Of a DNA stretch of 64,000 nucleotides, positions 13,925 to 61,231 are shown piece after piece. Every line of letters starts with the position of its first letter. Positions within the stretch are counted from its first letter, which is position 1. Under the pieces are notes generated by a model. The model did no database searches. It saw only the letters and a program-made list of their open reading frames with translations, and was not told where the DNA came from. Position numbers and translations under genes: made by a program. Where the stretch lies: positions 1-64,000 of the forward strand of contig CM026431.1 of the NCBI GenBank assembly GCA_014871385.1. The letters run 5' to 3'. This DNA comes from Ceratodon purpureus (Eukaryota > Streptophyta > Bryopsida > Pseudoditrichales > Ditrichaceae).

Positions 13925-13929
13925 CACGG

Positions 13930-22238: not shown

Positions 22239-22242
22239 TTAC
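22239..22242. other. Left TTAC target site duplication
   Basis: TTAC directly precedes the left TIR; the same four bases follow the right TIR. Confidence 0.6.
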
Positions 22243-22276
22243 GGGGGGAAGCACAATAAAGTGGACCACAAAAGTG
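22243..22276 (+). repeat. Left TIR of the 39-kb element
   Basis: G6AAGCACAATAAAGTG followed by GACCACAAAAGTG. Its inverted partner is 61195-61227. More AAAGTG/AAGTGT motifs follow over the next 250 bp. Confidence 0.8.
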
Positions 22277-24523
22277 GACGTCTCATTGACAATTTCAGCC
22301 ATTGTTGTAAACACTACGAAAAGTGTCATCTAAGTTTGTGATATCTTGAAAACAAATTTGGGGAGAGAAAATAGACTTGTTTATCGCGAGTCTCTGAAAA
22401 TTTAGAGCGAAAGTGCGGCTTTTGCGATGCCCTATGAGGAGCTCAAAGTGCGACAAAGTGAATGCAGGTATTTCGAAAAGTGGCTAGAAAGAGAGCTATC
22501 TTTGTCAGAATTCACTTTTGAAACCACTCAGGCCTCCGTTTTTGAATTGCTTCTGTAGAAATGAGCATGAGAACTTCGTTCGGAAGTGTGAATGGACGAG
22601 AAGTATTTCCGGGACGCTTCCGTGACCCTGTTTTTGGCGAAACCTTTTGGGATCTTTTTTAAAAATAGTGAGGCATATCAATATATTTTCAGCAACATTT
22701 TCATGATATTGAGGTGCAAAAAAAAAAAAAAGTGAAAAATAATTAATTTTAAAAATGGGATTTCACTTGGAATTCAGGGTTTAGTAAGTGGCAGTGGATT
22801 GCAAGGGCCTTGGGAGAGTGCCACGTCGTGTCAGGTGGTTGAGCGGTTTGGGGAACGTCATTGGTTTCCATTGCATGGGAATGACGTTGTCCATGCGGGG
22901 AAGGTCTGAAGCCACTGTCAGGTTCAGGTACAGTCGCCATTTCAGAACCATGAACGATGGGATTGTATTGATTAGGCGACCATTTGAGTAGTCATGATAG
23001 GGTCTGCTACTGAGAGGATAGGCAATTTCGTCATGCCGGGGGGGTAACCGTGATGGAGAAACGGAATAATTCCGTTCAGATGCCTGGACTGTGCGACTGC
23101 GCAGTAGGGTGTGCGGGGTGAAACAGATTTGCTTTTGCATTGTGGTCGATTAGGGTTTTCTAGCGAGGGAATTGCCAAGTATGCACCGCTCATGAGACTT
23201 GCAACGACTGCGAAGAGAGCAAGATTCCGAGTAGGCTGATCTGGATAACACAACCACTTCGTTGACATGAGAACGTGCAGTTGGGTTCCGACCTCAAGGA
23301 AGAGAGGTTCTTAGCTTGGAGATTGATGCGAGGGTGAAGGGGCTATTGAGGCAACGATTTCCTGGAATTCAAGGGAGGGAGCGCACAACGCAGACCTACG
23401 CATCCCTCTATGAGGCGAGACGAGAAGCAACGTGCATTTCCAGGTTCGTATGGTTCAGTTTCTCAAGCTTTAGGGTTTACGGCGTTGTTGTCCAAAGTAC
23501 ACAACGTGTGCTTCAGGGCGGATGGGACCGAGGGGGCTACATGGACGAGGATTCAGTTACTGTTGTTCGACACATTAGATGAATTTTGCAGATACTCTGG
23601 ATGCAATGTATGATAACAGAATCTGGGTCAATCAGAAATTCGCGTGGTTTGATGGTTTAGGGTAAATTGATGTTTTCTTTCTCGAAAAAATGCTATTGAT
23701 ACATTGTTCGCTCAAACCATAGAAAAAGGAGTTATGGCATCATCTTGCCATGACCTTCCACTGTTGCGATTCAGGACTGGATATACATATCATTTGCTGA
23801 TTTGCGTCCCTGTACTAGTCAAGGTTTAGGGTTCCGCGTGGATGGACGATGCAGCTTGAGAGCTATGCCACAAGGTTTTCTTGTGCTCGCATCTTGGTGT
23901 GAGGACTCTCACGACACCAGGATCCGTGGTTGAGAGGAGGACCCGACGGCAGGTACGCACAACATGCTTGTCGTTCCTGAGTTCCAGTTCCGATGTTGTC
24001 TGCGACCGTGACTCCAGTGATGATTTATCAATAACGCTGCTCCGTACCCGAAGTAGCAAAGGTGACACATTTCAGTAGAACTTGCGTTGGCATGGCTCAA
24101 TTTTTTTTGCGCAGCTGAACTCGAGTTCAAGGTAGTAGTCTGCTTGGTGAACGCACTGAAATCCAATGTCTTCTGTCTCCTCTACTCCTTCGTATTTCGT
24201 TGTCAACTTCACGCCATTTTCTCCATTTGTATCATGTAATTCATCGACTTCGTGGTCACGTTTGCCCCTGAATTTTTTTAATTAATTAATTTATTTTTTC
24301 TATTTCACGAATAGTGCGATGTCCTCGTAGAGCTACATGTCCAAGGTCTTGAGAGGTTGCGTTTTTTTTATTTCCAGGTGTCAGAACCTGTCTTCATCGA
24401 ACCATGCCCTCGCAGTCGAATGAAATGGTGTCACAACTAATCTGAGGAGCACGGTCGAGGCACTATACAAGTCGTTAGATGTTTTTTATTTTTTACATTC
24501 GTTTAAATAACCGTGTATGGGCG
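22277..24523. other. Left subterminal region of the 39-kb element
   Basis: No firm gene. AAAGTG-type motifs are frequent at 22280-22500. A short plus-strand frame at 23410-23453 ends in a possible donor and could be a 5' non-coding or small first exon of the transposase gene, but this is not established. Confidence 0.4.
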
Positions 24524-27500
24524 ATGGATGAGGGTTTTCTTGCACCTGCCGCAGAAGGGATGGGGAACCAGAGAAATAAGCTGAAAAAGGTGACTGTGGA
24601 TCGCCGGAGAGAGCTCGCGAGAGAGGATATGCAGCGTCGAGAGGCGGAGAAACTGGAGCAGGCGGAGCAGGAGCGACTTCGTGAACTCAGGTGCGTCATC
24701 CGGGCTCTTGCATTCGTAGGGGTAATTTAGGGTCAGCCGCCGTTGATGTTGGTGTCAGTGTTGTGATGTTGGGTCACTTGTTCCTACCCGTTGTATTTCG
24801 AAGTAAGTGGGTGGTTTAATCGGGAGAGGACAGGGTACTGGGCCCACTAAACGCATTACCTTTGAGATGAACCGAAATAGTGTGATGGCGATTCTGTACA
24901 GGGCTAAGCAGAAGCGCGATTTCCATCGGACCTGGAGAGCGAGGTCTCGCCCAAGCGAGGACCTAGCGGGGGGAGACAATGCGTGCGGTGAGGGACCTTC
25001 AGGGGCACATGACGACGAGGAGTTTCATGTGGAGTCCCAAGAGAGCGAGGAATATGAGGGACTCGGTGCCGAGGTGGAGACTGGCAGGGGGGTGACAGGC
25101 GGGGCAGAGTCTCAGGAGGAGAATGTCGTGCTCACTCAGACACAGGAGTCCTTCGAAGCTGATGCAGGTGACACCGAATGCGAGAGATTGACACCACGTC
25201 ACCGTAAGTGCGGGTATGGAGCCTCAAAGTTACTCAATGAGGCCATGCGCGTATTGGACTCAGGATACTCTGACGAGGAGAAGAAAATTGTCCTGCACCG
25301 GTTCTTCTCTGATGAGCGGATTCGCTCCATTGACCCCGAATTTACTATGGCTGTTCTGAAGTTGCGCACTGCGTCTGCTACAACTGTGCAGAGTTTGAGA
25401 GGGGCCCTACAAACCCTACGATCAGGGTGTATTCAAGGCAAATCCAAGGTAAGGAATATTGTTCTAACGGCTGCCGTCTCCAAGGGCGATTCGCAACGCA
25501 GGATTTGTAACGCATTAGGAGCGTCTCGATACCTAGTTCGGAAAGCTTTTCGGCGGCGTGAGGTAGTTGATGAAACAGGGGAAAATTTATGGGCCGGGGG
25601 GGACAGAAAACGAAGAAGCGACGCACTTAGCCAGGAGGACCAATCTGCTGTCTGTTCCTGGTGGGAGACAGAGACGACAGTTTCACCTAACAAGCGAGAC
25701 GTGAAGAGGCGACGCATTGGTGTCAAGGAGCATGAAACTCATGCAACCCACTACTTGCAAGTATCACAGGTACGTTGATGACACTAACTTTCCTCCTGCG
25801 AATTTGCATGACTGAACACATAGTTAATTTATGTAGGAGAGAACACGGTGTTAGAACCAATGTGGTGCTAATGGTCACAAGAAATTGGAGTATGTCGGGG
25901 GCATGTAGAGTCGGTCCAATGGAGTGAGGGTGCGCAGCGAGAGCTGGGTGTAGAGCTTTAGGACCAGAAGAAACAAGCTACCTTGAATTCTGTCCCGTGA
26001 GGCAGTCTTCAAATCTAACCCTGGAATTACAGAGCCCATGTATATTCAGTTAATGTGTAGGAGCGTCCACGCTAACACATACAGGTGTCAGGAAAATGTG
26101 ATCTCCTTTGGGCGTGTGGACATGTAAAGAGGTCTCCTGTTCCGCGTAGCTTTTGAATTACGAGGATACGTGAATCTGAAACGTCGGGGTGAATATGTTT
26201 GAGTGAATTCTCAGCAGTCCAGTTTAGCAGCTACCTAGCCATGAGATGTTTGGTGATTAGTTGATACCGATACGAGTAGAAACAGGGATTCGAAGTGGCA
26301 GCTTAGAGAGGAATGGAATGATGGTGTTGCGGTTACATGACAATTGAGTGGCTGATTTTAAGAGGATGTAAAAAAAACGGACTGAGAGTTGTAGTGACCA
26401 TATACGGGTTCCGGCGGGGCTGGTATGGGGTCAAGGGTTTTACTGCTGAGCATATAAAACCTGTGAGTTTCCAGGTTGGAAGTCTATGAGTGAGCAGCTG
26501 GACCCAATTTTGGGACAGTTTTAATGTGTCGGATTTTTGTGCTGAGAATTCGGAATTTGTGCTTAGAATTTATTTTTCTCAGCAGAGGTTTGTTAGATCT
26601 GGAAGTGGTAGTCGATGTTGGAGAGTTTCTGGATGCCAGTGTGTTGAATTCCCTTTTGAATGTACTTCGCTTTTTGGGAGAGGAAGTTCTCTGGTCTTTT
26701 AGAAGTGCGTTGTGTTAATGCTTTACCGGAGTGGCATTTGTGTGTAATATGGAGCGTTTTTACTATAATGCCAAGTTGGATATTATCGTTCTCTCTGGTT
26801 GGGATTGACGTCAGGAGCCATATGAATCTTGTTGATTTTCTGATGATGGGGCAGCTCAAATCAGTAGATAAGTTGAGTGGATTTTTTGGTGTATTTGGAA
26901 TGGGTGCACGTTTTTGCACATGATTCTTACAGTATAGGCAAATTTTCCGAGGCGATGTAGTTTCAGTGGATTTTCTTCGACTGCAGTCTCATTCGGAAAT
27001 TTCAGGGTTACCCTCTGATCTTGACTTCAGCTCATTGCGGACATCTTGTGAGTTTGTGGCGACGAGAAGGGTCTTTCGCACACACCGGAGATTTCTCTGA
27101 GCAGGATTTGTTAAGCTGACTCGCACGTGATGCAATTTTCGTCTCTTACCCGTGTCCTAGTCTGGGTCAAGGGTTTTACTGTTGAGCATGAAAAATTACG
27201 GGAGAAGGGACGTCTCTGCTGGGGCATAGTTATGGATATACTGCAACGGTGTCCCGTATGACATCTATCCGAGCGTTCTGGTTTGAAAGGGAGATTCCAG
27301 GGTACATTCATTAACATGCGTAAATGGGGTCTAGGTCCACCATAGTTGGGATCAAAGAAACCTTCGGCACTGAAACCTATGTGACAATTCTACAATCGCA
27401 GCTCAGACATTAAACTGGGGATTTTTTGAATTGTTGACTCCTTTGGGCGATTTCCATGTTGCGCTTTGAGTATCATCACTGATATTTGAACATGCGATCA

Positions 27501-30500
27501 GCTGTGCGGCACATTCTTTACGTTGGGATGGTTTCGCAATGTATACCAGGGATGTCTAGTATCAGCTTAGCTATCGCATGTGCTAAATAGCGTGGAGTCA
27601 GCTTCATGCAAGGCAGAGTCTGATGCGGTTCCGTGGGTGTGTGCTTGAGTGGCAGTTGGAGTTTCATACTCGTTTCAGGGAGGCTAACGAGGACAAGAGG
27701 GTGGGGCTAAGGGCTTTCGAGCTCCTCAAACCCTACTACGTGAGGAGGCTAAAAGAGCGCAATACTTGCGCTTGTCTATACCATTGCGAAGTCGCTGAAC
27801 TCAGGGTCGGATGGAATAATATGCGAACAACGAACAAGGGGATACATGGGCGGCACTGTGGATGCGTCTGCGAGGTGTGTGTGAGTCCGGTTACTGTGCA
27901 AGCATCAGGGGTGGACCGCAGCAGCACGTGTCATGCAGATCTTTGTCACTTCACTGGAGTGACGGACATGTGGCACAGTGTGTTGTGTCCGGTCAAGGAA
28001 GATGGATGGCACGCACGAAAGTGCATCAAGGGTGAGTGCGACTTCTGTGGAGTGGACATGTTACAGCTTTGTCCAAGGGAGATGGACGACTCAATACCGC
28101 TTATGGTTCAGTGGCATAACTTCGAGAAAGTGGTCCATGGGAGAACACGAGCAGGGAAAGAAAATAAGGTTTTGAGGATGATGTACCAGTCTACAGCTGC
28201 GCCAACATTCGTGGACTATCTCAAGCAGAAATTGAGCAACTTCATAGTCCATAACTACATTGCCAAATGGCAAGCAGAACAATTCAAGGTCAGCATAAAT
28301 ACTTTCCCTCCTGATTCGATATTGTCCGCCGTTGATTTTGCGGAGAACTACACTTTCCAGCCGTACCAGGAGCCGCAGTCCATGCACTGGCTGCAGCATC
28401 AGATCACTATACTGGTGCATATCTGCTATAGATGGAATCCCCTCTTCCTTGCGGACCCAGGCTCGAATGAACCGAAGCTTTTGACTGAGTACCATTACTA
28501 TATTAGTGACACAATGGAGCACGATACATTATTTGTTCAGCACTGCTTTGCGTTGCATTGGAAGCACATCACCGACAGGGGAATCAAGCCCAATGAACAC
28601 ATAGTGTGGTCTGATGGCTGTGCGGCACAGTTCAAATCACGGCGATGCTGGTATCACGTGTCAAGGTATGTGCGCACCATTCAAAAAATAACGCTCACAT
28701 CGTTATTCTTCATTACTGTCCATGGGATTTGCTGGTGCTCAGCCTGAGTCGCTCGGTGGCCGCTTGCGAATTTTTTATTTATTTTGAATTTGATTTGCTC
28801 ATCGTACTTTCTGACTTTGGCTACACCCTGTTTCTGGGAAACCCAAGTTTGCGGCACTTACATATATGGTAACTAAATTAGATTCTTAGTCATTCAGAGT
28901 CGAGAGTGCCGCGTTAGCTTTGGATCACGCAACCTGAGGATCAGCTAAATTCAAACCTGAGCTCAAAGTGGATAGACGGATCCAGGTTTCAATTTCTTCC
29001 ACGGCAAAATTTCGGAGTCCTGGGCAACGCTTTCTAAGCAAATATATTGCGGTACTGAAACGTGCACATCTGCAAACCAACTGCTGAGATGGGGTAACCG
29101 TTAAGTGGTTGGTTGATAGATGAGTGGGACGGAGGTCATTTACAGATACTTCGTTGGAACTACCTTGACTTGTTGATCGTGTTGCCAGGTTTGAAGCTAA
29201 GTGTGGTTCATTGACGTTTCACTGTTTCTGATGTATGTCCTATTATATGTCAGTTACTTTGTAAGATCTGGAAGACGTTAATAACTATGATGTTGCTACA
29301 AGGATGTAAGCTTCTTAGGTCCAGCCTTCGCCTGAATTGACTCATGAGTTTAGTGGAATTAGGTCCACAAGTGAGAGGAAACTGAACTTTAGAATCTCAG
29401 AGGGTAAAATTTCTTTGCAGATAATACCATAGCACTGCCTGAATGAAACAGACTTGGTATAAGAGTTAAATCAAACTAAAACTTCACCATAGGTTTCTGC
29501 AGTCGCTGAGGTCCCATTCTTGAAGTATTCGAATCGGGGACCCGGTGTTTGGGGTATGCCTTCAAGAGAATTGGTCGTGTTCAATGGTTGAGTTCTGGGA
29601 TTAAATTCTACTGTGGAGCAGGAGGGGGCATTGATTGGAGCTATCAGTAGCAGGGCACGTGTAGAAAAGAATCAATGCATGGATACTGCATGAGGCATTC
29701 AAGATGGTGTCTTAAGTCATTGGGTCCGTGAGAAGGTATTAAACGCGAGTTCCACTGGATTTTTTGGTCCCTAGAAGCAGGGTGTAGACCTGAAAACATG
29801 GTTACTAGGTAAGTGAGCGTGTAAGCATTGAAATTCCAATTTCCGAAATTCGGTAGAAGTATTGAGCTGCCAGTAAAGACCATGCACGCTTACTGTTTTT
29901 GATGAGAGCTGAGCGGTGAAGACTGCTGAACGGTGTGCATTCTGAAAGAATTCTCTCTTTCCGTGTAGGGTTGAAGTCATTTTAACATTGCTGGAGCAGA
30001 TTTTCGATTGTGATGCCCTCGTTTATCTACAGACACGTAGGTAGATATATTGTTTCTCGAATTGACGATCAGAAGGTACTCGACATGTTAATGTCCGTTT
30101 TTCTTTTTAAAGTTCTCATTGCCTCTCGCTTCCTGATTCTTTTTGCTTTCACTTGCAATTTGTTTTTCGTGGCTGCATCAATCGGGCACGCATTTAGCCT
30201 GGTTTGTTTGGTTGTTTTCACTATGTTTCGCTTCTTGACTCCGAAGGGTCTCCTTGACTGTTTTATTTAAATTCTCTTTGGTCAAGTCCCGCACTTCTGT
30301 CGACCGCTGCCTCTCAACTCTGATTGACGTTTTTCTTTCGCTTTAAATGAACTCTTGCTGTCTACTAACTCGGAACCTCGCTTGCTGTCTACTAACTCTC
30401 CATCTGGATCTTGTTCTTCTTCACTGACTTCTAACTTTTCATTCCCGGACTTCTAACTTCTAACTTCTGACTTCTTACTTCTAACTACTCAATCATTGAC

Positions 30501-32210
30501 TTCTAACTAAGAACTTCTCGTTCAGGGACGTCTAACTTCTAATTGCTGACTGTGAAATTCTAAGTTCCAACTGCCTTCTGACTTCTCATTCACTGCCGCT
30601 CATCGATGCTCGTTGACTCTGGACTTCTGCTCACGTTGATATTTGTTTCTAGTGCTGTGCTTACCGTGGCGCTTGCTGCCTGCGATCGGTCTTATTCCCT
30701 TTATTTTCTGGTTTAGGGGTTTGCATGTGCTCTGTCGAGAATACTGAGGTGGTCTGCTTGGAAAATGAACATACGTGTACAGGTATCCGTCAACCACAGT
30801 CATGTCGGGGTTGCCAAATGGCTGTCGGATGGTGTGGTCCTACTTTGGAAGTGGCCACGGGAAGGGTACCCATGATGGTGCCGGGGCTATGCTCAAATGC
30901 GCAATTCGGAAAGAAGAGATGAATTTCGAGTCCAGGACAAAGCTACAGACCGCAGCAGACGTTGTGAGTTTCTGCAATCGCAAGGAGCAGGAGGAGCATC
31001 GCGCATATGCAAAAGTGCGTCGGACTTTAATTCGTTATTTTCATCTGATTGAGCCGGGATCAGTCGATAGGAGTCGAGACCTTGACTGCCGTGCAATACC
31101 AGGGACAAGATCGGTTCACTCCGTGTCCTCTGTGTCACCCACGAATGTCACGTACCTGCACATTAGACAACTTGCGTGCTTCTGTCCCGAATGCATGGAT
31201 GACAACCCTATGCTATGTGCGAAGAAAGGACACGTGCGACATTGGAGCTTGAAAGTGCTGCAGCCATTAACCCCGATTCTGGTGAGGCCTGTTCTAATTG
31301 CTTCTTCCTGCCTCTCTGGATGTGCCGGTATCCCCCAATGCGATCTGGTCTTTCCCAGACTATGTTCATTCAGGAATTCTCTGTGCCGTGTTTGAGACTG
31401 GCTTTACTTGCTTGGAGTGAGGTAGGTTTTAGAGGTTGCTTTGTGGGATCGAAAGCACCGTAAGGATGAATCAAGAAGCTGTTAATACTCAAAATTAGAT
31501 CTGGATGGGGTGGATTTCCAGAGCGTATCTGCAGAAAAATTGGTGATGTTGTTGCTGAAATGATGATTGTGCACTGCATGTATGTCACATGGTAGAGCGT
31601 CGGCACGGGGACACGTCATCAACGAGCGATGGAGCATGCTGGGGAGACAGAGGCCGTGCGGGAAGTCCAATTCTGTTCCGTTCGAGAGTCAACCAATGAG
31701 GCACACGTGGAGTCAGCGGAGGTGGACGAGCAGGGCTCCGACGACAGGGAGCCAGAATTTGTGGACGATCTAATTGATGAGGGGGAAGAAGATGCCGACT
31801 TGGAATCAGAGGCACTGCGGGTCGAAACGGGGGACACCTACGTCGTGTATACTGATCGACCAGAGCATGGAGATCGGTTCTTCTTAGTACTTTGCGACAT
31901 GCCCGTGCACAACAATCTGGCGACGTTCACCGATGGTTGGGGTTGCACGTGGCCGAGGGACACCATGTTAATAAGTGGGACGTATTATCGACGTCTTCCA
32001 AGTGTGGGGCGGGATGCAGGTTCCTTCAGGTATGAGCTGTTGGAGGACGAGCCAAAGGCGTGGAATTACTCTCACCTCGTGGTGCAGTCAAGGGTGGACT
32101 TATTGCAGTACAAGACGAGCAAGAGGAATCCGCGCTTCAAGATGACAGCAGAAACACGGGAGGCGATCCTGTCAAACGTAGAAGAACGTCAAGCGTATAA
32201 TGCTCACTGA
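24524..32210 (+). CDS. Large DDE-like transposase of an unclassified family (five exons)
   Basis: Exons by splice signals and phase: 24524-24690, 24827-25769, 27656-28665, 30783-31281 and about 31596-32210. Joins are phase-consistent and give ~1077 aa; the start of exon 5 is the least certain. Order: basic N-terminus; helix-turn-helix-like region in exon 2; Cys/His cluster (CACLYHC, CGCVCEVC, CDFC) that may bind zinc; VDFAENY (D~597), QSMHW, SDGCAAQFK (D~690), then FGSGHGKGTHDG (D~737), plausible catalytic acids; a second Cys cluster (CFCPEC) in exon 4; C-terminal domain in exon 5. I recall the same motif order in large uncharacterised proteins of many invertebrates, but no superfamily name. 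Introns 2 and 3 are ~1.9 and 2.1 kb. No stops in the exons. Confidence 0.7.
30355..30590 (+). repeat. ACTTCTA-rich simple repeat in transposase intron 3
   Basis: ACTTCTAACTTCTGACTT-type units recur about 15 times. Pyrimidine-rich on the plus strand and ~200 bp upstream of the exon 4 acceptor at 30783. Confidence 0.7.
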
Positions 32211-38399: not shown

Positions 38400-39120
38400 T
38401 GATGTGTCTGGGCTATGGCGGCTTTCCAAGGGCATCTCTCCACTTCCCAATATCTGTGGAGGCGCTGTGTCACTGTAAATCCGGTGTTCCTGACGTTAGG
38501 GTAGTTCTGACGTTTCTTTTCCTGACAATCCACTTCATCAAAGTGACGCTTCACGGGTCCAGGTTCACCAAATCCTCGGAACCCCTTCGAATTCCGTTGT
38601 TATATCCCGTGCCGCTTTCTTTTCGTGTACAGAAGCGACTTCGTTGGGCGAAGTCGCCACTTCCAGTGTACTGTCCGGCTCAGATTCTATTGTTCAAGTA
38701 TAATCCGTAGTGAACATTTCAGTGTGGGCTACTTCCCATGGCCCTGTTCCACTTAGCACTTGAGGATGCACTGTTTCTCTAGGTACCCCGCTCTGGAGGT
38801 TGCATTGCACTTCCACTGTACTGGACGGCAGAGGTTCCGTTGCAGTGTATTCCTCAGTGAACATTTCAGTGTGGGCTATGTCCCATGGCCCTGTCCCACT
38901 TGGAACTTGAGGATGCACGGTTGTCCTATGTACGCCGCTGTGGAGGTTGTATTCCACTTTCTAGGCAGTGGACCGAAACTTTTCACACTGCATTGGCACT
39001 TCACATTTGGTGGCAAGGTTCACTTCCACTACTCTGTCACTTTCGCCATATCACTTAACTTGTTGATCCACTTTAGTTTCACTTACTCGCTTTCTGATCA
39101 GTGGTTGCTTCGGTCTTGAC
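38400..39120. repeat. CACT/AGTG-saturated block with a 147-bp duplication
   Basis: CACTT, CACTG and CAGTG motifs recur every 10-25 bases. Within it AGTGAACATTTCAGTGTGGG starts at 38709 and again at 38856, a tandem duplication of ~147 bp. Reading frames at 38339-39119 are by-products of the repeat. Confidence 0.65.
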
Positions 39121-41458: not shown

Positions 41459-41556
41459 CTAATGTACTCACTAATGTACTCACTAATGTACTCACTAATG
41501 TACTCACTAATGTACTCACTAATGTACTCACTAATGTACTCACTAATGTACTCACT
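41459..41556 (+). repeat. 12-bp tandem repeat upstream of the 527-aa gene
   Basis: AATGTACTCACT is repeated eight times exactly from 41461 and decays at 41557 into related units. It ends ~35 bp before the ATG at 41592, so it lies in the promoter or 5' UTR and contains the ACTCACT motif abundant in this element. Confidence 0.85.
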
Positions 41557-41591
41557 AATCTCCTCTCAAATTTACTCACTAGTAAAATCAT

Positions 41592-47728: not shown

Positions 47729-50700
47729 TCACTCGCGCTTCCTCTTTGGTAGCTTCCCTCCACGGCCTCGACCCTTCCCGGCATCATTGACCACAGCCGG
47801 AGCTCTGAACTTCTCGTGTGACCCAATAGCTGCAAGTGGCTTCATATTCGCCCCTTTCTCTCCCCTTGCAGCGCCCTGGCCACCTCGACCTCGCCCCAGA
47901 TTCGGCTTTTTTGTCCCTGGCTCCCTACCTGCATCACTTGTACTCCCAGGAGTGACAGCCGGGGACGGGCAGAGTTTATTGTGCAACGCCGCTTGTCGCC
48001 GCGTGCTGTGTGGACGTGTTCCTTGGGAAGGTATCTTGTCAATAGTTGGGGACGAGCCCGGTTCTGTCTGGATTTCAGCACTTACCGTGTCCCCCTCAAG
48101 TGATTGAAACTCCGTTGCTGGCAAGGCCCACTCCTCGACTCCTTTGCTGGCAGGCGACGATTCCCTTTCAGTTCCCTCACTCATGGCCTTCTCCGGTAGG
48201 ATACTCTCTTTCGCTGGTTCTGGAACGTCCTCATCCTCGTCGTCACTCAGTGCCATGTCAAGAATGCCCGTCTTCGGCGCTGGATCTTGCAGAAACCCTT
48301 CTACTCCACCGTCAGTCAATGCCAGTGTCTCCGGTATAATGGTTTCCCTCGCATTACCGCGGACCCCTTCTTGCGCCAGGGACGAAGCACGTGCCGCCTG
48401 ACTGAGAACAACGTCGTCCTCCCCGAAAATTATACTGTCATCGGAAGTCCGGCCTGTTCCTGATCCTAGGTTTGACCGCGACCCGGATATCGGAGTCCTG
48501 CCGCGGCTTTGGCTGGGCACGTCCTCTACTTGCAATGACTTCCCAAAGACGTTGATCCTGCCCATACTCCCTGTCGGTGTCCTCCAGCTTCCAGAGGCGG
48601 GAGTGCCCAACTGACCGGACGATGGCGTTCCTGGTCCTTCGTGTCGCTGAGACACTGGTGTCCCCGATGCAGACGGCACCTGAACTGCAACAGCCAAACA
48701 TCAATATGTTTGATGCATCAGATCCTCAAATTCAATCGTACAGGTAAATATACATGTCCATGCATTGAACCAAACATCCCGAAGCAATATTAAAGCAAGT
48801 CCCTCGAAGAGATTTAAGTCCTGCCCTTCACTTTACAGTATGTGCTGTCCGGCCACAGTGTACTTGCAGTGAATTCCCACGGCCCAAGCGAATCTACAGT
48901 GGAAACAAGCATGGCCACCGAATGTAAAGTGCCATGCCACTGTCGAAGCACTTCTCCAGCTGATCACAAGGGGCAAAGTGTCCACGTGGGCACTTCAGTG
49001 GAGACAATACATTGACTGAGCCCGATCAGGGCACTGCACCGCGACTGACCTAAGTACACAGCGAAGTACACAGTGACAGTGACGCATGAGGAGCTTCTCT
49101 CAGTGGGCAACACAGTGGAACTACAGGGATTACGACCTGAGCAGGGCTCCTCTAAGAAAACACAGAACAGGAAAGCGTCCAGAAGTAGAAGTCAAAGTGG
49201 CAAAGCGAAGGGTAAGTCCCAGGGCACCGTCGAAGAACTTCTCCGGAGTTCTTAAAGCGAGACGAAGCACTCACGGGACGCTGCAACTGAATCGGTGCCC
49301 TGGCAGCACCTCGTCAGTGCAAGTGACTGTATGTACTTGCGTGATGTGCCACATTCAAACTCCACTGCGAGAAAGTGACTAACTCAATTGGGATGGGCAA
49401 GCAAACCGGCTGCTTCGTGCTAAGCACTGACATGGCACTGCCAAAGCCCTTCTACACTGCCAAAGCCCTTCTACACTCATTCTGAAGTGAATCAGGCCCC
49501 GCACAGTACTCTTCACGTGAACCGGCGGTTATTTTTTACACTTCACGCTTCAGAACCCTTCAATCCGTCCTGCAATGCACTTCAAGGTGCTCTCGAAGGT
49601 TACTTCACGTGACACATCAGTCAAGGAAGAAGCAGTGGTCACTACTCTGTCCGACAGTACAACTCACAAAATAGAATTTTCCAGTGACCTCCTCAACTTA
49701 TACCACGAAAAGCAGAAAGCAAGTGGACGGCACTGAAACAGAGGTAGGTTTCAAAGGGGAGCACTCCAATTCGAACCTTCTTCACTGGAATTCGTTACTT
49801 ACAGTTTGTAGACGCGGCTGCACCGACATTCCCGGAGTCTACCGTGTTGAATATACCCACGAGACCCTCCTGTTTGGGCTGCCGCAACGGGGGTATGCGG
49901 ACTTGATTCGCTCCGAAACTCGCCATCCAGTCGGCGCAGAATTCCTTCTCGCAACCTGTATACGCACACTGCCTCCTCCCATCACTTAACCACGCTGCCA
50001 AGCAGAAATGATGGTACACGCACCCGCAGTCAGCTATGGAAGCATTAAGGCATTTGAAGTTGTAGCCACAAACAGGGCAGTTCTCAAGATAAACAACCAT
50101 CGTCCTGCCCTGCTCTGGTTGTCTAGGATTGCGAATAGGCAGCGGTGTCGTTCCCATCCCTGAACCTTCGGCCATGAGCTGCTCTTGATCAGTTAACTTT
50201 GCCACCCAGAGCTCCGCTCGTACTGCGCCCATCCCACGTAGCGTTATCTCTCTCTCAATCTTTTTCAAGTCCTCCTCCAGCCCCTGCTGCTCCTTCCGGA
50301 GCTCTTCCGTCCTTGCACTCTCCCTGCTGAGAATGTGTTCTCCAAACTCCAGGTCCTTATCAAGTATCCGGAGCTCCTTCTCGTCCTCCATTTCGGTCTC
50401 TCCCACTCTCTGGATCTCGCTATCCTCAAAACCGTTTCCCCTTCTTACTTCGTTGAAGTGTGCCACCAAGCTCTCACGCCGTCGCCGTATGTTCGCGCAG
50501 CTGAGCTCTTCCTCTCGCACTGATTTCTGCCTCTCCGCCAGCGCCCCGTCCACTCCCTTGCACTTTTGCTGTACCTCACGCTGCCGATGCTCGAGCACAG
50601 ATCTGCAAACCACAAGCTCCTCATCAGATATTATACACTCCGTCAGCTCGTGTACATGACAACAGGGGATCCATTCCCTCCTCTCTCTACTGTCATCACC

Positions 50701-50789
50701 CGCATGGCCTTGGATACCCTTGGCTACTATTCGACTCAGTTCCCTATGACATCGACCCAGATTCAAACTCGGCACGGCACGCTTCACTC
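47729..50789 (-). CDS. Coiled-coil RING-type protein with acidic and RG-rich tail
   Basis: Two exons join in phase: ~50789-49803 and 48684-47729 (stop at 47729). Exon A has ~200 residues of coiled coil (REVQQKCKGV...KKIEREITLR), then a RING-like finger: CPVC, DCGCVYHHFCL, then CAYTGCEKEFC. Exon B is Ser/Pro/Gly- and acid-rich (LSDDEDEDVPEP) and ends in GRGRGG repeats and KRKRE, a probable nuclear and nucleic-acid-binding tail. The 5' end is unresolved: no good ATG opens exon A, and its phase fits the preceding exon of the guanylate-binding fragment (donor at 51231), so a chimeric transcript is possible. The finger resembles that of the hAT-borne RING protein. Confidence 0.6.
48830..49790. repeat. 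AGTG/CACT-saturated intron block
   Basis: The intron of the RING gene carries dozens of CACTG, CAGTG, AAGTG and CACTT motifs, nearly one every 10-20 bases, far above the neighbouring exons. AAAGTG also closes the TIR of this element. CTACACTGCCAAAGCCCTT-like units repeat near 49440-49475. Confidence 0.6.
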
Positions 50790-51230
50790 CTGGCGCACTG
50801 CTCTCTATTCATGTCTTGTTTATTTCTCTTGAATGCAGAGGCGTCTGTGTCCATATCCTATGCTGAGGTCTCCATTCCTGGTTCACAAAAGCCGACATGT
50901 TAGTATATGTACACCTTCCAATCATAACACCATTCCTGAACTACAAAACGTAAGCCAATTACTGACGCATCTCACTGCCGGATCAATCCATGTTGTTATA
51001 AAATACTTCTACGCACCTACTTGTAGAATCCATTCTAAATATGTAGTTTGTTAAATCTACACTCATGACACTGTAATTGTAAAGGACTCTGTGCACTCAA
51101 AAAAAAACAAGTTCCCAAACTCTGGAGCAGCAATTCATTATTGTCTTATACAAGGCAAGCGGATATGGACATAAATCAAACCTTTCAACTATATCTCATA
51201 AGCAGAATGTATTATAGCGTACCAGCAAGA

Positions 51231-54200
51231 CACACCTGCGTCTTGGACGGTTCTTTTAGGACGAGTGGGGCCCATTGATGACTTGCCAGGTGGAGTGTCC
51301 GTTAAACCCCGGACTCGGGTCTTCTCATCAATTTCGTGATCGCCCATATGCAAAAGCTGTCCGTGGTAATTATCGATCTGTCCCTGCATACATTGAATCT
51401 GCAATGACAGAGCTTCCGGTCTTTGGCCTGCCTCAGCTTTTGCAGCTCCTGCAGTGGCCAGCAACTTCTCAAATGCCTCGACTGTCTTTGCGCGCTGCTC
51501 TTCAGAGTCGTCCGGTAAAGTTTCCATCTCCTTCTCCCTTTCTTCACATTGTCTCTCCAACAAAGTGACTCTTGCAAATGCCTCTTGCTGCATCCGTCTA
51601 CTCTGTTGAAGACTCTGAAATGTTCCAATGCAGTACACATTGCATAAAGTTGGCATGCAGAGACAAGAGAAAGACTATAGATAAGTCAAGTATAAAACTT
51701 ATAACATAACTCCAACATCTAGATAAGAAGTTTACCTGAAACATTTCGTCTCTTTCCTGTCCCAACGATTCACAACGTCTTTGAGTACGTTCAACGGTGG
51801 CCATTCCCTCTACAGGGTGATTTCTAAGTTTCCAACTTTTATCTTTCCTCAGCAGCTTCTTCAGCACGAGACTTCTCTGCAGCTTCGATGGCACGCTTCG
51901 AATCCCGTTCAGCTATTTTCCTCATGTGTTCTGCCTCTTCCACCCCCCTGATACATTCATTCATCCGCTGTTCTGCGTCTGACTTCTGTTCTTCAGCCTT
52001 CTCTAAATCTCTCCTTAGAGTGATAGATTGTGACTCAGTGCCTTCTAATTGCTGTTGTACATGTGTTAGGTCTGACCATAACCTCTCAGATTCTTCAGGT
52101 TGCTCTGATGTTTTGAATTCAAGATCCTGCACAATTAAACAGAAGCCCTGAAGTTCAAAATTCTCCAACTTTCCTACAGCCAAGACCTAAAATTGTAGTT
52201 TATTTTACGGTATGCTTCAACTCAGAAACGAAGATAAAAGATGCGGGTACACTACATTAAGGTGAGCAGACAGCCCAGCATAGTGTCGCTCCGACGCCTC
52301 TACGGTCGCTGTAAATTCCTTTGTCTCTTGCTCCTGTCACAAGGAATTCATGTTCTAATCTGGTGAGAAAAGTCTGGAAAAACAATGCAAAATAAACACT
52401 GAAATGATATACAACAGCCACGGACAAAAACACAGAAGCACTAAGCGCTGAATCAGGTAAACAAATATATTCAAATAATCTCAATGTATCACATCGTAAT
52501 AAACTCCTAAGTCACAGGTGGAAAGATTATATTCAAATAATCTGAAAGTATCGCATCGTAATGAACTCCTAAGTCACAGGTGTAAAGATTCTACAATGCT
52601 GATGTCAAAAAGTAACTCACAGCAGGAGAACTTAGGAGTACAATACACCTCACTCATATCCAAATACTCTTCCAATAGGTACTCACTACACGGACGCATT
52701 TCCAGGCCTAATCCAAGGAAGTCCATTCCAATATCACCATTTCGATGGCTTATGTTTCAATCTTTCTTATATAGAAGAGTAGAATATGATGAGCGAAGAA
52801 GAGCACCTTTTCAGAGATTCTCGGAGCATATTCTGCTCGCATAGAATCCTCACGTGCCTGCGCGTGCTTCAGTGCTCGCTCCTTTTGCGACGTTGCCTTC
52901 CCAACAGCAACCTTAGTATCAGCAGAAAGCGATTGGTACTTTCTCTGCCATTCTGCACCCTATTGACTCTGATTGCTCTTTCACTGCTGACAACCTTGCC
53001 TCTGCAGCCATTAACCCCGATTCTGCAAGTATTGTTCGCAGTTATTAACAAGGAAAGAGTCATTTCACATGCCAAAACGTAAATCTAAATGCAGAATATA
53101 CTGATATGGGAAGCAGTTTCTGAGAGGTACTGCGTAAGCACACTTCAAGAATAAAACAGTTCAGAACACAACAATTAAGAGTACTTTATCCTTTCGAAAA
53201 TCTGATTCAGGTACGTGACTTCAACAACAAATGCATAATAGAATCCACAACTTTGTAATACCTGGAAAGATGCAATCTCAGCGTTCAGTCTCTCGGTCTC
53301 AGCTCTCTGTGCGAAACGATACTGCGCATACTTGCTCTTCCAGTCATAGGACTCCTTCCTGGCACCCTCAAGTTGAGCTGAACGAGTTCAGTTCTTCTCT
53401 TCTAAAGCAGTAACTTCCTTCTGTACAAAGGCATATTGAGAAGATGCATTCTCGGAAGCTCTGTTGTAATCATTCATGGTAGTTTCATGGCGCTTCTTCC
53501 AGTCTTGTGCATCGCGTTGAGCGGCTTCGGTCTGTTTGGCTGAGAAAGGCAAACGCTCTCCCATAGAACGTCCTTTTGTAATACGAGGCTTGAATACTCT
53601 GCTGCTGCCTTGTCACATGCTCGTTTCAAAGATCTCCTTAGTATCCAGCAAAACTGCAATTCAGAAGCAATTATTACGAAGCCACGCAAGTTGCACCCTA
53701 GTACTATCAAATCGACTGCACTCCTTTCCACACGTATGAGCCATCTGTGACCTTACTTACATGGCATGTCTACGTATAAATACGGCATTTCTTCGTCGAA
53801 AAGAACCTTTAAAAAACCTTGTTTGCAGAAACTGGACGTGCTTCTGATATTTCACAGGACCAGTTGCTTGAGCCTCGTATTCAGCTACCAAACCGTCGAA
53901 GCCCTGCAAAAAGAGAACATACCTTCAATACCCTTCGCAACAAAATGGCAATTACTCCTGATATGACAAAGGAGCCCGTAACGAACATAGAATTTTCTGA
54001 CAAATACAGAAACCAAAGAAAAGAAACGAGTACATACCTTAATAACGGACTCGTACGTTGCCTCGGGTGCAATACAAGCATTTCTCAACTTCTCCTCCAC
54101 CGTGCCCAGTGCTCTTAAACATCTCAGCTCTGCCTCCATGGACGAATTTCGCTTGAACTCCTTTAGTTGTGTCAAAAAAGGGAAAGAGGCACTGTAAAAC

Positions 54201-54760
54201 ATTAAACGAAGTCATGCACTTACATATTTCAACAACTAAGAGCCTGGAAAAAACACCGGAAATCAACACCGAAGCTCGAAGAATCATTCCTCACACCTAT
54301 AAGAGATACCTCAAACTGTCGCTTGAAGTCAGCATGCAGTAGCGTCTCCTTGTTTCGTCGAACAGGTCCAGTTCCAACAGCCTCAGAATTATAGACAGAA
54401 AACGCTGCGGCCTGCACAGCTTCTTTTTGGGCTTCTTGCAGAGCCACCTACATTCAGGGGACAACAACATTCTCAAGCCGGTGAGCACTTGATTTCACAT
54501 TATCCGTAACGAGCCTGTTCCCGCAAAGTTATCCATTTCTTACAATGCATTTGTCTAGCACGAAGTGAAGACCGAACAAACATCCGAGTGCCGTAAATAT
54601 CTTCATCCAAACTGAACAAGATATTGACGACTCACCTCATCAGAAATAACATCCTTCTTGAAGGCTTGGTTGTACTTCTCATTTGCCATGTCATGAGCGC
54701 GTCGGCACTCGTTCTCTTCCACGTCCTGCTTGGGCACTCCAAAGTCAATACTTGGGGAAA
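51231..54760 (-). pseudogene. Captured C-terminal half of a plant guanylate-binding protein (GBP-like) gene
   Basis: Minus-strand exons match the helical and coiled-coil half of plant GBP-family GTPases in order: KQDVEENECRRAHDMAN..ISDE (~54757-54632); ALQEAQKEAVQAAAF..NSEAVGTGP (~54453-54310); EAELRCLRALGTVEEKLRNAC (~54160-54042); GLVAEYEAQATGPVKYQKHVQFL (~53900-53820); coiled-coil exons at ~53530-53380, 53040-52828 and 52127-51736; and LLERQCEEREKEMETL..AEALSLQ-like at 51614-51231. The N-terminal GTPase domain is absent. Some coiled-coil exons need a frame change to continue (near 52900 and 51840), so it is decayed. Introns are kept. It follows the BEACH fragment on the same strand. Confidence 0.65.
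52467..52590. repeat. 62-bp tandem duplication in a GBP-fragment intron
   Basis: ATATTCAAATAATCT...CTAAGTCACAGGTG occurs at 52467 and 52529 with a few differences. Confidence 0.75.
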
Positions 54761-54925
54761 AGAAACAGATAAATGGTCCTTCTCAAACTCCAACATTTCG
54801 AAAGGTTGAAAATAATATACCCTAAACCGACGAACTGAAATTCAAAGGTGCAAAACTACTGAAAGCGCACAAACATTACTGGCAAGCCAAGGAACACTGA
54901 CAAATACAGAGTAGCCAGATGACAT

Positions 54926-57900
54926 ACCTCTCTATTGGCCCACTGCTCGGTCAATTGTGACCTTTTCAGTATCCGTTCAGGATTCTGGTAACAAAGACAT
55001 ATCAGAACAGAGTAATTAGACCCGGCACAGGTTTTAAGATGCGCATAAAATTCCGAAGAAAACATGTAGTCTTTCGCATGACAACTACTTGAATGAAGTG
55101 TTCCATAACAAATGGATTCCATACAGATATTTTCTGCCAATTAACTAACCTCTATAGCAGCATGAATAAAATCCAATCCTGGAGGCCTTGCTTCCACAAT
55201 GGCCTTCTACACCTTTTTCCTAGCTCCTGTTGTCTGCTTCAGAGAAACAGATGGTTAGGATCCAATAACAATATCTACAAGCCGATACATCTTGGTTGAG
55301 ATCGGCAGCTGATACCATAGAACTGGATAAATGTTGCCAAAATATGGTGTTCTTACACAAAGTTTGTTCATAGAAGTTCCTGTGAAGAGACCCTTCTAAC
55401 AAGTGTTATGGCATTCTAGAGTGACATAGACCTTAAAAATGCCTAAAATCTAACAAACAACAATTCGGATCATTGAGATTAAAAAAGGTCGAGGAACAAG
55501 AGATAACTGTGCCGAGCATAAATAATTATTCTATAAGTACAAGGTTTAAAATAGCCACATCCTTGAAATCTATTGTAATGAAGAGGCATGAACATTCCAA
55601 AGAATGTCTAAGTCACTTACCCCAAAATTGAAAAGACAATTAAATCTGTCTGCCATGAACAACTCCAAGGCACTCTTCCGGAGGGCATATCTGCAAAGAA
55701 AAATTCGATATATATCATGATGCAATGACACACTAACGAGTACAAAACGTAGAATCGTGCTTGTGAAGACCATAGTCATCGTTAGCTGTCTCGTCCTACA
55801 CATCAAATATCTCCAAAGCTTTTCAAACTTCAGAGTACTAACCACATATGCATGTGTTTTGAAGCTCGTTGCCATCTCCTTCCTCACAGAGATTGCCACC
55901 AGATTGCTTGTAAAAGTTTTGCTTAAAAAACTTAAGAGAAATACGAGTGCACTGAACTTACCTTCGAGTATATATTTCTTTTAACAATGACAAAGGCCAA
56001 AGCCTGTCTTTGGACCCATCCTTTCTTTGCTTCCTCTTTCCTTCTACTTCCCCTCCAGCCTCTACTTCAGACACACCGTCGGCACCAATTAAGACTGCAA
56101 CACCTGTCTCATTCATCTGCACGCGGTCATCTAGCATGAAGCAAATACGCCTTGTTGTAACCTGCACCGACCATGTACGTAAATTTATCAGGCACAACAG
56201 CCCACTAACAGAGGAGAAATAATTAATTTCGTTAGAGTAATAATTCAAACGTGCAGCAGAGGTATGAAAGGAGCTTCAACAGACAGAGGCTACTGAAAGC
56301 CTACACTTCTGAAAAGGTGATCATACAGTTCGGTAAAGCATCATTTATTAGAAGAATTTGCACATCTTCCAGGATCATATTGCACTGCACGAGATTAAAA
56401 TTTAGAATTCTAACCTGAAACATTCCTCCTCGCAGTTTTAACGGCTGAATCAGAACTCCAGGCATTTCCAAAATTAGAACCTCCTTAGCCTCTGGGGTGG
56501 AGGGAGCTGCAGGTACAGGGCTAGGTGGTGGACTAGTTGGTGCTGGAGCTGTATTTGAAGACTGTGTTTGAGCTATTCCTGAGTGAATTCTCTCAGTAGT
56601 ACCTCTGGACTCCTCTTTTCTCGAATAGGAACCAGCTTCCTCTATCTCATCCTCAGATCTGGAGGCTTCTTCTCCCGTGTCATTACCAGTGCTATTTACA
56701 GTTATAAGCTTAGCCATGGCAGAAGCTACAGGAAGTTCACCGTCAGAACCAGTACGTTGAGATTGCTCGTATCCTTTCATTGGTATCTGATGTTCCGCCC
56801 CCTTGTAATTCTGCTTCAATCGCTTTCTCATGCGCAGAGAATTCTCAAAAGCATCCAACTTCCAGTACACCTGCATGCAAACCAGATTCTGGAGCTAAGC
56901 TAAAAATTCTGCATTCAGTATAGAAATTATCACAGAAGAAGTGGAGCGGAAGCGCCTTCGTCAGCATAATAAGCATTGTTAGAAGTATGACTAGTGGGTT
57001 TTACTTAGTTTCAGAGGTGTGCACAAGCAGAAGCAATGATCAAGAATGAAAACCACCAACTACAGTGAAGAAAAAGTTCATTGATTCGTAATACCAGATT
57101 CAAAGTAAGAAATGAACAGCAAAATGCGAAGTTGATGAAAAATATTGGAATTTATCAACAAATTTCCTGCACACAAAAACCTGAAAACTGACATCTATTT
57201 ACGAATAAGCTGCTGTACACTTATGACCCACATCATCTTCACGATTCCTGTGGTAAAGACAAGGAGAAACATTTGTCGTAGGCCCATCAATTCATTGCAA
57301 GTGAACCTAACCATACCACTAGCACTTCAAGGACGTTGGGGTATCAGTCTTGACTAGAGATTATGTACAAGCCAGTGCAATTATGTACTGAGATAGAGAG
57401 CCTCACATATGAAATCATAGTGCGAGAAACGGACATCAAAGATAAATACGTGAGACATCCCAGACAGTACTAGGGCTGTTATAAGATGCCAAGGTCCGTG
57501 GAAGTAGGCATAAGTTATACCCGTTACAGGGGTCCAATCTGATTCGTAATGGCCCCAAAGAGTGCACCCATCTCTTGAAGACGACGAATAAGAGAACGCC
57601 AAACTCGCCCTCCCACAGTTGTTCCGAACTCGTCGGCAGCAGCAGCTATCGAGCGTCTGTTGACCTGTCCATTACAATAGAACGGTTTACCATGAGATTC
57701 TAGAGAAGAGCTTGCACATCAAGAAGTTCAATCATCAAAATTTCAGTCATGAGGTCAAACAACAAGCAAAACTTCATCATGCAGATCTTTCCTCCAAAAA
57801 ATTATATCAAATAACGAATGGGAATGACATAACTTATATGTATGAAGATTACCTCAAGAATACGCATCCGCCTTGCCGTTTCCACCATAGCAGGAAGGAC

Positions 57901-59165
57901 ACCGAAGAGTGAGTGAGCAGATTCACCAATATTTATTCCTTCAAAATCCTCTCCTTTGTTATAATCTCGCCAAGTGTTAATCGTAGCCTCCGCTATGTTT
58001 CCTCTTCTTGTCCTCTCTCAATCCGTTAGAGTTCTACGCTGCCATGATGTTGCCATAGCCACAGCACCTAGCCCGCGCACTGAACCTACCCGCGCTGCTC
58101 GTTCTTGATCCCGAGCAGCAGCAAGAGCTACAGCCTTTACAGTTGCCTTCTCTTTTGGTGTGGTTGCCTGCGGTCGTTGAAAGTTTGCTTGAGATTCCAA
58201 TGGCCGTTGAAAGCTTGTTGTAATTGAAAGCCGATTAGATCGCGCTTGCTGAAGATGTTGACCCGCGCTTAGATCTTGGATGTTGCGACTGTCGACCACT
58301 TACTCCAGCACCAGCCATGGCTAGGGCCATAGCAGCTGGAGGAGATGCAAACGCAGCTGCTCAGGCTGGGGTAATCATGGCCAAGGCGGCCTACATCGAC
58401 AATGTATATAAAGGTCCATTTACTCAGATTCAGCACGAGAGAGAGAGAGGACTGTGACAACTTCATATGACAAATCCAGCTTTACGAGCAGCAAATAACA
58501 CATCAGACGATTTATCTAGATGTGCCTTCACCTCCCCAATGGCATCCTCTGAATCCTTGCCGTAATTCACTCTTGATAAAAAGAGGTACCTTGACCAGAG
58601 AGTGTTGTTTGCAGGCGATAACATTTCTAATCTTAAATTCAGAACAAATGGCAGAAATACCTCAAGTGGGGGTGTATCGACTGCCAAAGGACTGTCTTCA
58701 ACTGCAAGAGGACTCTGACCCTCGGCATCTGTAAACTCATGGATGCCCGACAGTAGAGGCCTCCGACGCCTGAAAAGCGCAGCAAAGGGTGGGACGATCG
58801 TCTCGAGATACTGCTTCCGAAAAACCTCTCTATCATCATTCACTGCATGCCAGACCTGGACAGAACAACTCCCGGTGAGACCAACCTACTCGAGATTCAA
58901 AGGTCACTAACATCAACTTGACAAAACATACAAAGAAGGTATGAAGTATTCCACAAAATGATCTCGAGGAAAACCTACTGAAGCCTGTGTAAGAAAAGCT
59001 AGACAGAAGTATATGCGATAAGCATCATTTCTGAGGCAACACCTACCTCTGAGTAGAAAATGCAGACTGCCACAAGCACCCGTTGCCTCCGATAATCAAT
59101 GAAAAAGTTGCATTGTGAGCAATGGCGCCAGCACACTGACGAGTCAATAAAACAAAACAAGCACT
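54926..59165 (-). pseudogene. Captured middle part of a plant BEACH-domain protein gene
   Basis: Minus-strand exons in order: RVLVAVCIFYSE (59165-59047), VWHAV...LETIVPPFAALFRRRRPLLSGIHEFTD (from 58857), an AAAFASPPAAMALAM segment (~58370-58310) with TGA where a Trp is expected just before it, ATTPKEKATVKAVALAAARD and GLGAVAMATS (~58170-58030), WRSLIRRLQEMGALFG (~57570), then the PH-BEACH part: VYWKLDAFENSLRMRKRLKQNY and EVLILEMPGVLIQPLKL (56876-56395), RLWPLSLLKEIYTR (~56010-55965), YALRKSALELFMADR..CLFNFG (~55690-55622) and RILKRSQLTEQWANRE (~54985-54926). It stops at the start of the BEACH core, whose N-F-E-Y-L region is missing. BEACH proteins act in membrane trafficking; this copy cannot. 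Confidence 0.75.
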
Positions 59166-59468: not shown

Positions 59469-60356
59469 TTACCACCAAAGCAAAGAAGATTTTCTTCTCC
59501 TCGTGGCCAATTCTTGGATCTGGATCCTTCTTGAATTTCCCTCTATCATCGAATTACACGAGTCGGAGAGGACGAGCCGGACCACCTGCAACACTCTTGA
59601 CAGGACTCGACCAAGTTTCCGTCGCTGGACTAACCTAGCAGCAAAAATTGTAAGAAGCAAGGAGTCCGAGGTAAAGCATGCTCACAGTTTCGGTCCGATG
59701 CTGTTATTGTCAGCCTCTGCAGTCTTCAGTAGCTCGAGCACTTCGGATGTCTGCTCCGATGAGAATCGCAGACCCTCACAGGCTGCTCCAAATTGTCGAC
59801 TTCGACCTTGCGAATTCCCCTCCCCGGCACTCTCCGGAATGTAAACTCCGCGAAGGTCGTCCCACTTCTTTCGGCATGCGTCCTCCACTCTCCCATCCCT
59901 CTCCCACGAGGCGTACTGTTTTCGACAAACGTCATACGCGAACTTCGCCCAGTTTATCTTTGCCTTACCTTCTCTTTCCGCCAGCCAGCTCCTCAGGAAG
60001 TAACGAGCATACTCCTTGTTGGGGGGCGGGTGATTGTAGATCACCAAGTATTGCTGGTATACCTTAGCGCACTCCTCCTCCGAGATCTCCCCATTCGGCA
60101 CGACTCTGATACCGCTCCCTCCCTTCGTTGGAAACACCCTTTTGAGATGGTTTTCGGTGATATGAGAGTTCCCGCATTCCGTCTTCCCGCAGATCCCGGA
60201 GTCTTCCAAATCCAGCCTCTCCGCGAAGTTCTGCACAGTCCACTTGGCACGCTCATGCAAAGCCTTAGCAAATTTAATTCGTTCCAAATTCTTCCTGTTT
60301 AGGTCGTGCTCCACCTTCGGCACTGCAACGACCTGATCACAGAGCTCCGATGCCAT
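59469..60356 (-). CDS. 278-aa protein of unknown function, intact two-exon gene
   Basis: Exon 1 60356-59686 starts at ATG (MASELCDQ) and ends in phase 2; exon 2 59634-59469 continues in phase and ends at TAA. Residues ~90-190 hold conserved-looking segments (EECAKVYQQYLVIYNHPPP, YARYFLRSWLAERE, WAKFAYDVCRKQYASW, CRKKWDDLRGVY); spaced Trp residues resemble a Myb/trihelix-like DNA-binding helix set, but this is tentative. Exon 2 is strongly basic. It is the outermost gene at the right end of the 39-kb element, where a DNA-binding accessory factor would be plausible. It begins ~300 bp upstream of the BEACH fragment and is distinct from it. Confidence 0.55.
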
Positions 60357-61194
60357 GAAGATTGCGGGAGTGCGCACACGCTTGCAAACAGATTGTAATT
60401 CACCGCCGACTATTTGCGACGTGAACAACGCTGGAAGCTCTGTAACCCTAATCCCAGCAAGGCCCACACTTTGCTATTGCGTTTCCCTCTAAATTCAGCA
60501 ATGCAGCTCTTCGCTAAATTCCGGACCGCGAGCGACAGCAAGACTCCCCCACAATGCTGATTATGCAGGCACAAAGATGCGCGCACTCCCGGAACTCAAA
60601 ACCTGGGGTTCCGGTTCGACACAACAGCCGGAATTCAGCAGATCCGCAGTGATGACGCACGATGTACCCTCCGTTCGGGGATTCGCAAGCACTCAGACAC
60701 ATAACAGTTCGCAACAACGGCAGATGAGAAACCCAAACACCATAGATCGAAAAATCAGCGAAACCCCCACTCGCGCTGCGACCTCCTCTCGCGACAAAAC
60801 CCTCACGATGCCCTCCTTTGATCCAGCTCAAAGTGCGAGGGAAGTAAAGTGTCCAGCACATTGGAAAACCCATTCCCAAGCACTTGCACCCTACACGCAT
60901 TCTCTCAAACATAGACCGCACCCACGTCAGTAGCGATGGCCGCGCACCTGCAATTACTTGCTGTTCCTCGGAAATGGAGATGCTGCAGACCGTGAAGAAG
61001 AAACGGCTGCGGAGCATTCAGTTGCGACCCTTTGCGGGATTGGGCGCAATGAAGAGCCCTCACTCGACTTCCGTGTCGACCCCAACAAGTGTCACCCAGC
61101 TCCCTTCCCTGTCATCTGGTTGTTCAACTGCCAAGACGTTCCCAAAGTCCCCAAAACACCCACTGCGAATTCACTGAATTCTGGTCACATTTTG
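60357..61194. other. Right subterminal region of the 39-kb element
   Basis: Probably contains the promoter of the 278-aa gene. AAAGTG/CACTTT motifs occur near 60830-60860 and 61180-61215. Plus-strand frames here lack motifs. Confidence 0.4.
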
Positions 61195-61227
61195 CACTTT
61201 GTGGTACACTTTATTGTGCTTCCCCCC
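61195..61227 (-). repeat. Right TIR of the 39-kb element
   Basis: The reverse complement begins with six G, then AAGCACAATAAAGTG, then TACCACAAAGTG, matching 22243-22276 with one substitution and one indel. Confidence 0.8.
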
Positions 61228-61231
61228 TTAC
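61228..61231. other. Right TTAC target site duplication
   Basis: TTAC directly follows the right TIR, matching 22239-22242. Confidence 0.6.

Follow-up and report, generated by a model that had tools for sequence, protein, structure and literature searches.

The locus raises the question of whether two inverted ends lying 39 kb apart delimit one transposon that encodes its own transposase, or whether they belong to separate, smaller elements. In the window, the whole 64,000-nucleotide stretch of DNA that was analysed, the interval bounded by these ends occupies positions 22243-61227 (38,985 bp), as read from the sequence. We consider it probable that this interval is a giant cut-and-paste DNA transposon of a plant-lineage genome, Sola-like and encoding its own transposase, in which pieces of host genes are passengers.

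The left end consists of TTAC (22239-22242) followed by GGGGGGAAGCACAATAAAGTGGACCACAAA, whose reverse complement, with one mismatch, finishes at 61227 and is followed by TTAC again (61228-61231); the two TTAC copies, which have no strand, form a putative target-site duplication. Counted from the first G, the terminal inverted repeats (22243-22272 on the plus strand and 61198-61227 on the minus strand) agree at all but one of 30 nt, and the outermost 21 nt, starting GGGGGG, are perfect. The repeat search placed the arms at 22240-22272 and 61198-61230, 33 nt long, 94% complementary and 38,925 nt apart. It listed 11 inverted pairs in the window, and the arms were more than 10 kb apart in four of these, including the ends of the 39-kb element; the others were I6 (28 nt, 89%), I8 (24 nt, 83%) and I9 (25 nt, 80%), and the I6 arms are probably the termini of an adjacent hAT element. 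With up to three mismatches allowed, the perfect terminal 21-mer was found in the window solely at the two ends; shuffling gave 0.01 matches expected, and none of 100 shuffles held two. No contig in IMG/VR contained the 21-mer. The 4-bp duplication is seen at a single locus, at which four given bases would agree by chance in about 1 case in 256. The repeat search, the 21-mer count and direct reading of the borders bore out the first-pass annotation, which had claimed inverted ends (21 bases perfect, about 33 in total, beginning with six G) lying 39 kb apart and both bordered by TTAC.

It is unlikely that each end belongs to its own copy of some smaller element, with host sequence or several elements making up the DNA between. 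The host gene pieces in the interval and the knowledge of the element from a single locus would be consistent with such an origin, as would an extra end-like stretch, GGTACACTTTA (61295-61305), which is found 65 bp beyond the right end and is identical to the inner part of that end. However, the TTAC that flanks the interval on either side is what a single insertion would leave, and because the 21-mer is confined to the two ends, each supposed smaller copy would be without its other end. The host genes, furthermore, appeared in profile and motif searches as pieces and not as whole genes.

The left end of the proposed transposon also carries seven AAAGTG boxes on the plus strand (22258-22482), which may be transposase binding sites. 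Within 250 bp, seven boxes fall on one strand, for which the window averages 0.12; no other place in the window is as dense in this hexamer, which was chosen post hoc, once the ends had been inspected; 50 shuffles of the window gave at most three per 250 bp. A pair of boxes 12-13 bp apart occurs at both ends (22258 and 22271 on the left; 61207 and 61195, minus strand, on the right), and an array comparable to that of the left end was absent from the right end. One further box lies just beyond the right end, as does the end-like stretch at 61295-61305. AAGTG, a shorter word, peaks at another place, with eight per 250 bp on the minus strand at 38.8-39.0 kb. Two tandem copies of 135 nt, 81% alike and AAGTG-rich on the minus strand, are present at 38692-38973.

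A transposase-like gene adjoining the left end (24524-32210, plus strand) was modelled by hand as five exons (24524-24690, 24827-25769, 27656-28665, 30783-31281 and 31647-32210). Exons 1-4 were joined at GT/AG borders and gave a single open frame in consistent phase. For the last exon, 19 AG acceptors were tried, of which 11 stayed open to the same stop, yielding proteins of 1,025-1,077 aa; with the acceptor at 31647 selected, the splicing model predicted from sequence encodes 1,060 aa and has zero internal stops. A motif search of the protein revealed the candidate catalytic residues D597 (DFAENY), D690 (SDGCAAQFK) and D738 (GTHDGAG), with spacings of 92 and 47, and E751 and E752 as alternative candidates for the third. 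The longest single frame in the element (386 aa) was longer than any frame from 50 shuffles, whose longest frames averaged 185 and peaked at 323, and the second to fourth longest reached 337, 323 and 323 aa against the shuffle maximum of 323. As these frames were barely or not above that maximum, frame length alone was moderate evidence, and continuity across five exons was the stronger evidence for a gene.

Searches with the five-exon protein in Pfam gave no family match, with one chance-level hit (E 1.4). In the PDB, the exon-3 frame had no match and the protein core had one chance hit (E 1.8), while in NCBIfam exons 3 and 4 had no match and exon 2 reached a chance-level E of 0.084. Exon patterns matched IMG/VR (1 and 8) and prokaryote genomes (8), and 0 of these 17 were confirmed as relatives. 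A degenerate GHGKG..DG.G pattern occurred in three IMG/VR contigs, against which tblastn of exons 1-4 gave a best E of 0.53, and exon 3 had no tblastn match among plasmids and phages at E up to 10. Since the protein had no database relative, it is called transposase-like from its motif context and its position. The large intron-bearing, DDE-like gene that had been described here was upheld as a splice-consistent open model with candidate residues D597, D690 and D738; the DDE call itself was motif-based, with no Pfam match.

The remainder of the interval contains pieces of host genes. The Pfam scan covered 37 of the longer single frames of the interval, and two of the 37 scored above the curated cut-off (NAF and PH_BEACH). 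A C-terminal CIPK protein kinase gene piece on the minus strand (45309-45761; NAF and the following region) contained the NAF domain at E 9.3e-23 (80.6 bits, cut-off 25) and matched CIPK23 over residues 5-113 (phmmer E 3.3e-31). Neurobeachin/BEACH-type exon-like pieces, also on the minus strand (54928-58885, outer limits set by eye), included the PH_BEACH region, detected at E 1e-8 in the single frame 55573-55980 (35.7 bits, cut-off 27.5) and at E 2.3e-18 in a typed BEACH chain. Exon-like pieces at 51192-54782 (minus strand) resembled the C-terminal part of guanylate-binding protein; the GBP_C profile matched a typed 152-aa chain (E 4.6e-6, 26.7 bits, cut-off 24.3), and it matched neither the 330-aa chain containing that chain nor four single GBP-like frames. 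Judged by these matches, the CIPK and BEACH pieces appear firmly host-derived and the GBP piece, with its weaker match, is likely to be so. From the CIPK piece, the host would be of the plant lineage, probably a plant or a plant-related green alga. The other open genes claimed in the first-pass annotation were real as open frames, at least two of them being pieces of host genes (CIPK and PH_BEACH).

A weak, possible glycosyltransferase family 28 gene piece (40009-40245, plus strand; E 0.12 and 0.16), which may be of UGT80 type, scored E 0.16 in a 48-aa piece, under the cut-off, and had no match in the PDB; a UGT80 piece is suspected there, and with these scores its capture was not claimed. A six-frame pattern search of the element found no kinase HRD, BEACH core, GTPase P-loop or UGT motifs, simple patterns of this type being able to overlook divergent copies, and the sole DFG-like hit (45337) was surrounded by stops. 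As far as profile and motif searches show, the host genes appear to be represented by pieces and not to be complete. The BEACH-like pieces lay, by eye, in differing frames with GT/AG-type borders, as expected of captured genomic DNA with introns, and blocks that seemingly retain introns suggest uptake of DNA and not of mRNA copies. Compared by eye with homologues, the GBP stretch seems to contain a frame change, and the BEACH stretch seems to be interrupted by a TAG in frame.

Host pieces between inverted ends bear on another possibility, namely that this is a non-autonomous Pack-type element whose transposase comes from elsewhere, the five-exon gene being a captured host gene or an unrelated element. 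Pack-TYPE elements, as outlined in PMC8903248, are non-autonomous and hold captured host gene DNA between their TIRs. The element resembles them in that CIPK and PH_BEACH scored above curated cut-offs and GBP_C did so in one of two chains, and its five-exon protein is without a profile match proving a transposase. The element differs from them in having an open transposase-like gene of predicted function, which adjoins the left end, runs without a stop for about 1,060 codons and holds DDD-type candidate motifs; the host pieces look interrupted, unlike this gene. A Pack-type origin is distinctly unlikely. For Pack-MULEs, most were 1-2 kb and none exceeded 7 kb in one survey quoted in a 2019 review (PMC6431247).

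A single large TIR transposon, as the first-pass annotation had proposed, is very likely and is well supported by the ends, the TTAC pair, the end-specific cluster of AAAGTG and the open multi-exon gene with its DDD-type candidates. The binding, catalysis and mobility that we infer for it would involve the protein of about 1,060 aa attaching to the inverted ends, along with the AAAGTG boxes that they contain, and excising the element by means of its predicted DDD/DDE active site. Insertion into a target whose strands are cut 4 bp apart would then place TTAC on either side. The CIPK, BEACH and perhaps GBP pieces may have been acquired as DNA together with their introns. They were probably copied in when the gap left by excision was repaired, a route often proposed for capture of this kind, and would since have been carried as passengers.

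By its 4-bp duplication and DDD candidate, the transposon appears most like Sola, a placement that we infer from these described traits. TTAC on both sides provides a 4-bp duplication at one locus and is not specific to Sola, as other superfamilies also produce 4-bp duplications. The candidate DDD residues D597, D690 and D738 were identified by motif, with no profile match, and an AlphaFold2 prediction of exon 3 alone from a single sequence had a pLDDT of 31. Sola is described in PMC10741241 as one of seven plant TIR superfamilies, which has TIRs of 11-1124 bp, a DDD enzyme and duplications of 4 bp, lengths mostly of 2-9 kb with some above 15 kb, and members in the moss Physcomitrella. The element is like Sola in its 4-bp duplication and short TIRs, and it is unlike Sola in its 38,985 bp and the host gene pieces inside it; the presence of Sola in a moss also fits. 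The absence of a Pfam match agreed with the initial view that no superfamily could be named, but a 4-bp duplication and DDD candidate in a plant lineage fit Sola.

Two Sola elements offer closer comparisons. Sola1-1_Ec32 of Ectocarpus, as summarised in PMC12477816, is 21.5 kb long and has an accessory gene on the strand opposite its transposase, an arrangement resembled by the possible accessory gene on the opposite strand here. Sola2 elements of the social amoeba Polysphondylium share a 7-kb transposase end, have wholly different 3' parts and make AT-rich 4-bp duplications, according to PMC3627910. The layout of a transposase at one end with variable cargo behind it is similar, whereas TTAC differs from the AT-only duplications quoted for Sola2.

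Among other superfamilies, KDZ, for which Pfam includes a model, differs in that the five-exon protein here has no Pfam match. Giant KDZ elements are nevertheless similar in being very large, with TIRs, a long transposase and extra genes; PMC12477816 reports them at 30.3 kb in Ectocarpus and 31.7 kb in Chlamydomonas, where the element moved, and gives maximum lengths of 15.2 to 30.3 kb for the giant KDZ, EnSpm and Sola-1 elements of Ectocarpus. The ends of CACTA (En/Spm) elements are CACTA/CACTG with a 3-bp duplication, and some exceed 20 kb, with short TIRs, and can carry host gene sequence, according to the summary in PMC10741241. In size, short TIRs and carriage of host gene sequence our element is similar, and CACTA was excluded by ends that start GGGGGG and a duplicated TTAC of 4 bp. 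CACTA elements also possess subterminal repeats, a further point of likeness. The hAT superfamily was excluded by the 4-bp duplication and by the absence of DUF659 and of the hAT dimerisation domain from the five-exon protein, and the same Pfam library detected both domains in a neighbouring frame (3089-6541). The duplication length of hAT is given as 8 bp in the summary of PMC10741241.

The size of the element, together with TTAC, a sequence that some Starship target sites contain, could suggest a fungal Starship or Starship-like giant element with a tyrosine recombinase. The Starship captain is a DUF3435 tyrosine recombinase, and no DUF3435 or other recombinase match was obtained in Pfam among the 37 longer interval frames scanned, a result on which the Starship reading was rejected. 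Paired inverted ends with a duplication also argue against such an element, as does the CIPK piece, which indicates a plant-lineage host, whereas Starships have been described in Pezizomycotina fungi. This origin is highly improbable.

Besides the host pieces, the transposon contains open frames of other kinds, at 42032-43692, 47729-48700, 49795-50808 and 59682-60356, none of which had a Pfam family above cut-off. Two long frames at 42032-43692 (plus strand; 252 and 281 aa, the second coiled-coil-like) may form an accessory gene, as may a 225-aa frame running from ATG to stop, inward from the right end (59682-60356, minus strand). Kinship between the 42-kb and 60-kb frames was not claimed, at E 0.19 in a small set and 0.010 for a single pair over 23 residues. 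The minus strand also holds a 323-aa frame (47729-48700), and a 337-aa frame (49795-50808, minus strand), in an incomplete gene model, has a coiled coil and a RING-like zinc finger (zf-C3HC4, E 0.018, under cut-off). About ten copies of a 12-bp unit, CACTAATGTACT, lie at 41457-41581. There were no Rfam matches and no tRNAs.

The neighbouring sequence at 2-14379, about 14.4 kb long, is probably a large hAT element, judging from its ends and domains, with inverted ends at 2-29 and 14352-14379 (28 nt, 89%), the left one at the window edge. It contains a frame of 1,151 aa, in which DUF659 (E 2.9e-34) and the hAT dimerisation domain were detected, a kinase-like frame (Pkinase 31.5 bits, just short of the cut-off of 31.7) and a tandem array of a 143-bp unit in about five copies (7854-8575). 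The RING-like frame of the 39-kb element (49798-50808 in this comparison), when compared with an 876-aa frame of the hAT element (10074-12701) that likewise combines a coiled coil with a RING-like part, gave blastp E values of 0.06 and 0.15 in two runs and an hhalign probability of 33%, a hint only; possibly, transposons that are themselves unrelated carry one type of accessory protein here. Between the two elements, GC-rich GGCCGTCGCCGGGGACGGCC-type repeats occur within an AT-rich stretch (18070-18491), with long imperfect inverted repeats close by.

The first-pass annotation had called a self-encoding element of this size and end sequence unfamiliar in plants, most cut-and-paste elements being under 15 kb. 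At 39 kb it is large, but it has precedent in the algal TIR elements of 21.5-31.7 kb cited from PMC12477816 and in Teratorn. As described, Teratorn of medaka is a giant TIR transposon of 180 kb, of the piggyBac superfamily and fused to a herpesvirus, and nothing piggyBac- or herpesvirus-like was found here. With giant TIR elements already known, the element is notable for its size and for an open transposase-like gene joined with captured host blocks. A bolder reading, which we regard as unlikely, is that it is a self-mobile 39-kb transposon with a transposase outside the described superfamilies and accessory proteins of its own, among them the coiled-coil/RING-like protein, and that it moves multi-exon blocks from different host genes and joins them into new gene fusions, BEACH beside GBP being an example.

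If the Sola-like reading is true, a single element would combine two traits that are usually described separately: Pack-type capture of host genes, and a transposase-like gene with an open frame. It would be larger than the algal TIR elements reported in PMC12477816 while remaining below Teratorn. A long transposase-like protein with no Pfam model would also represent an annotation gap, in which such genes are counted as unknown host genes.
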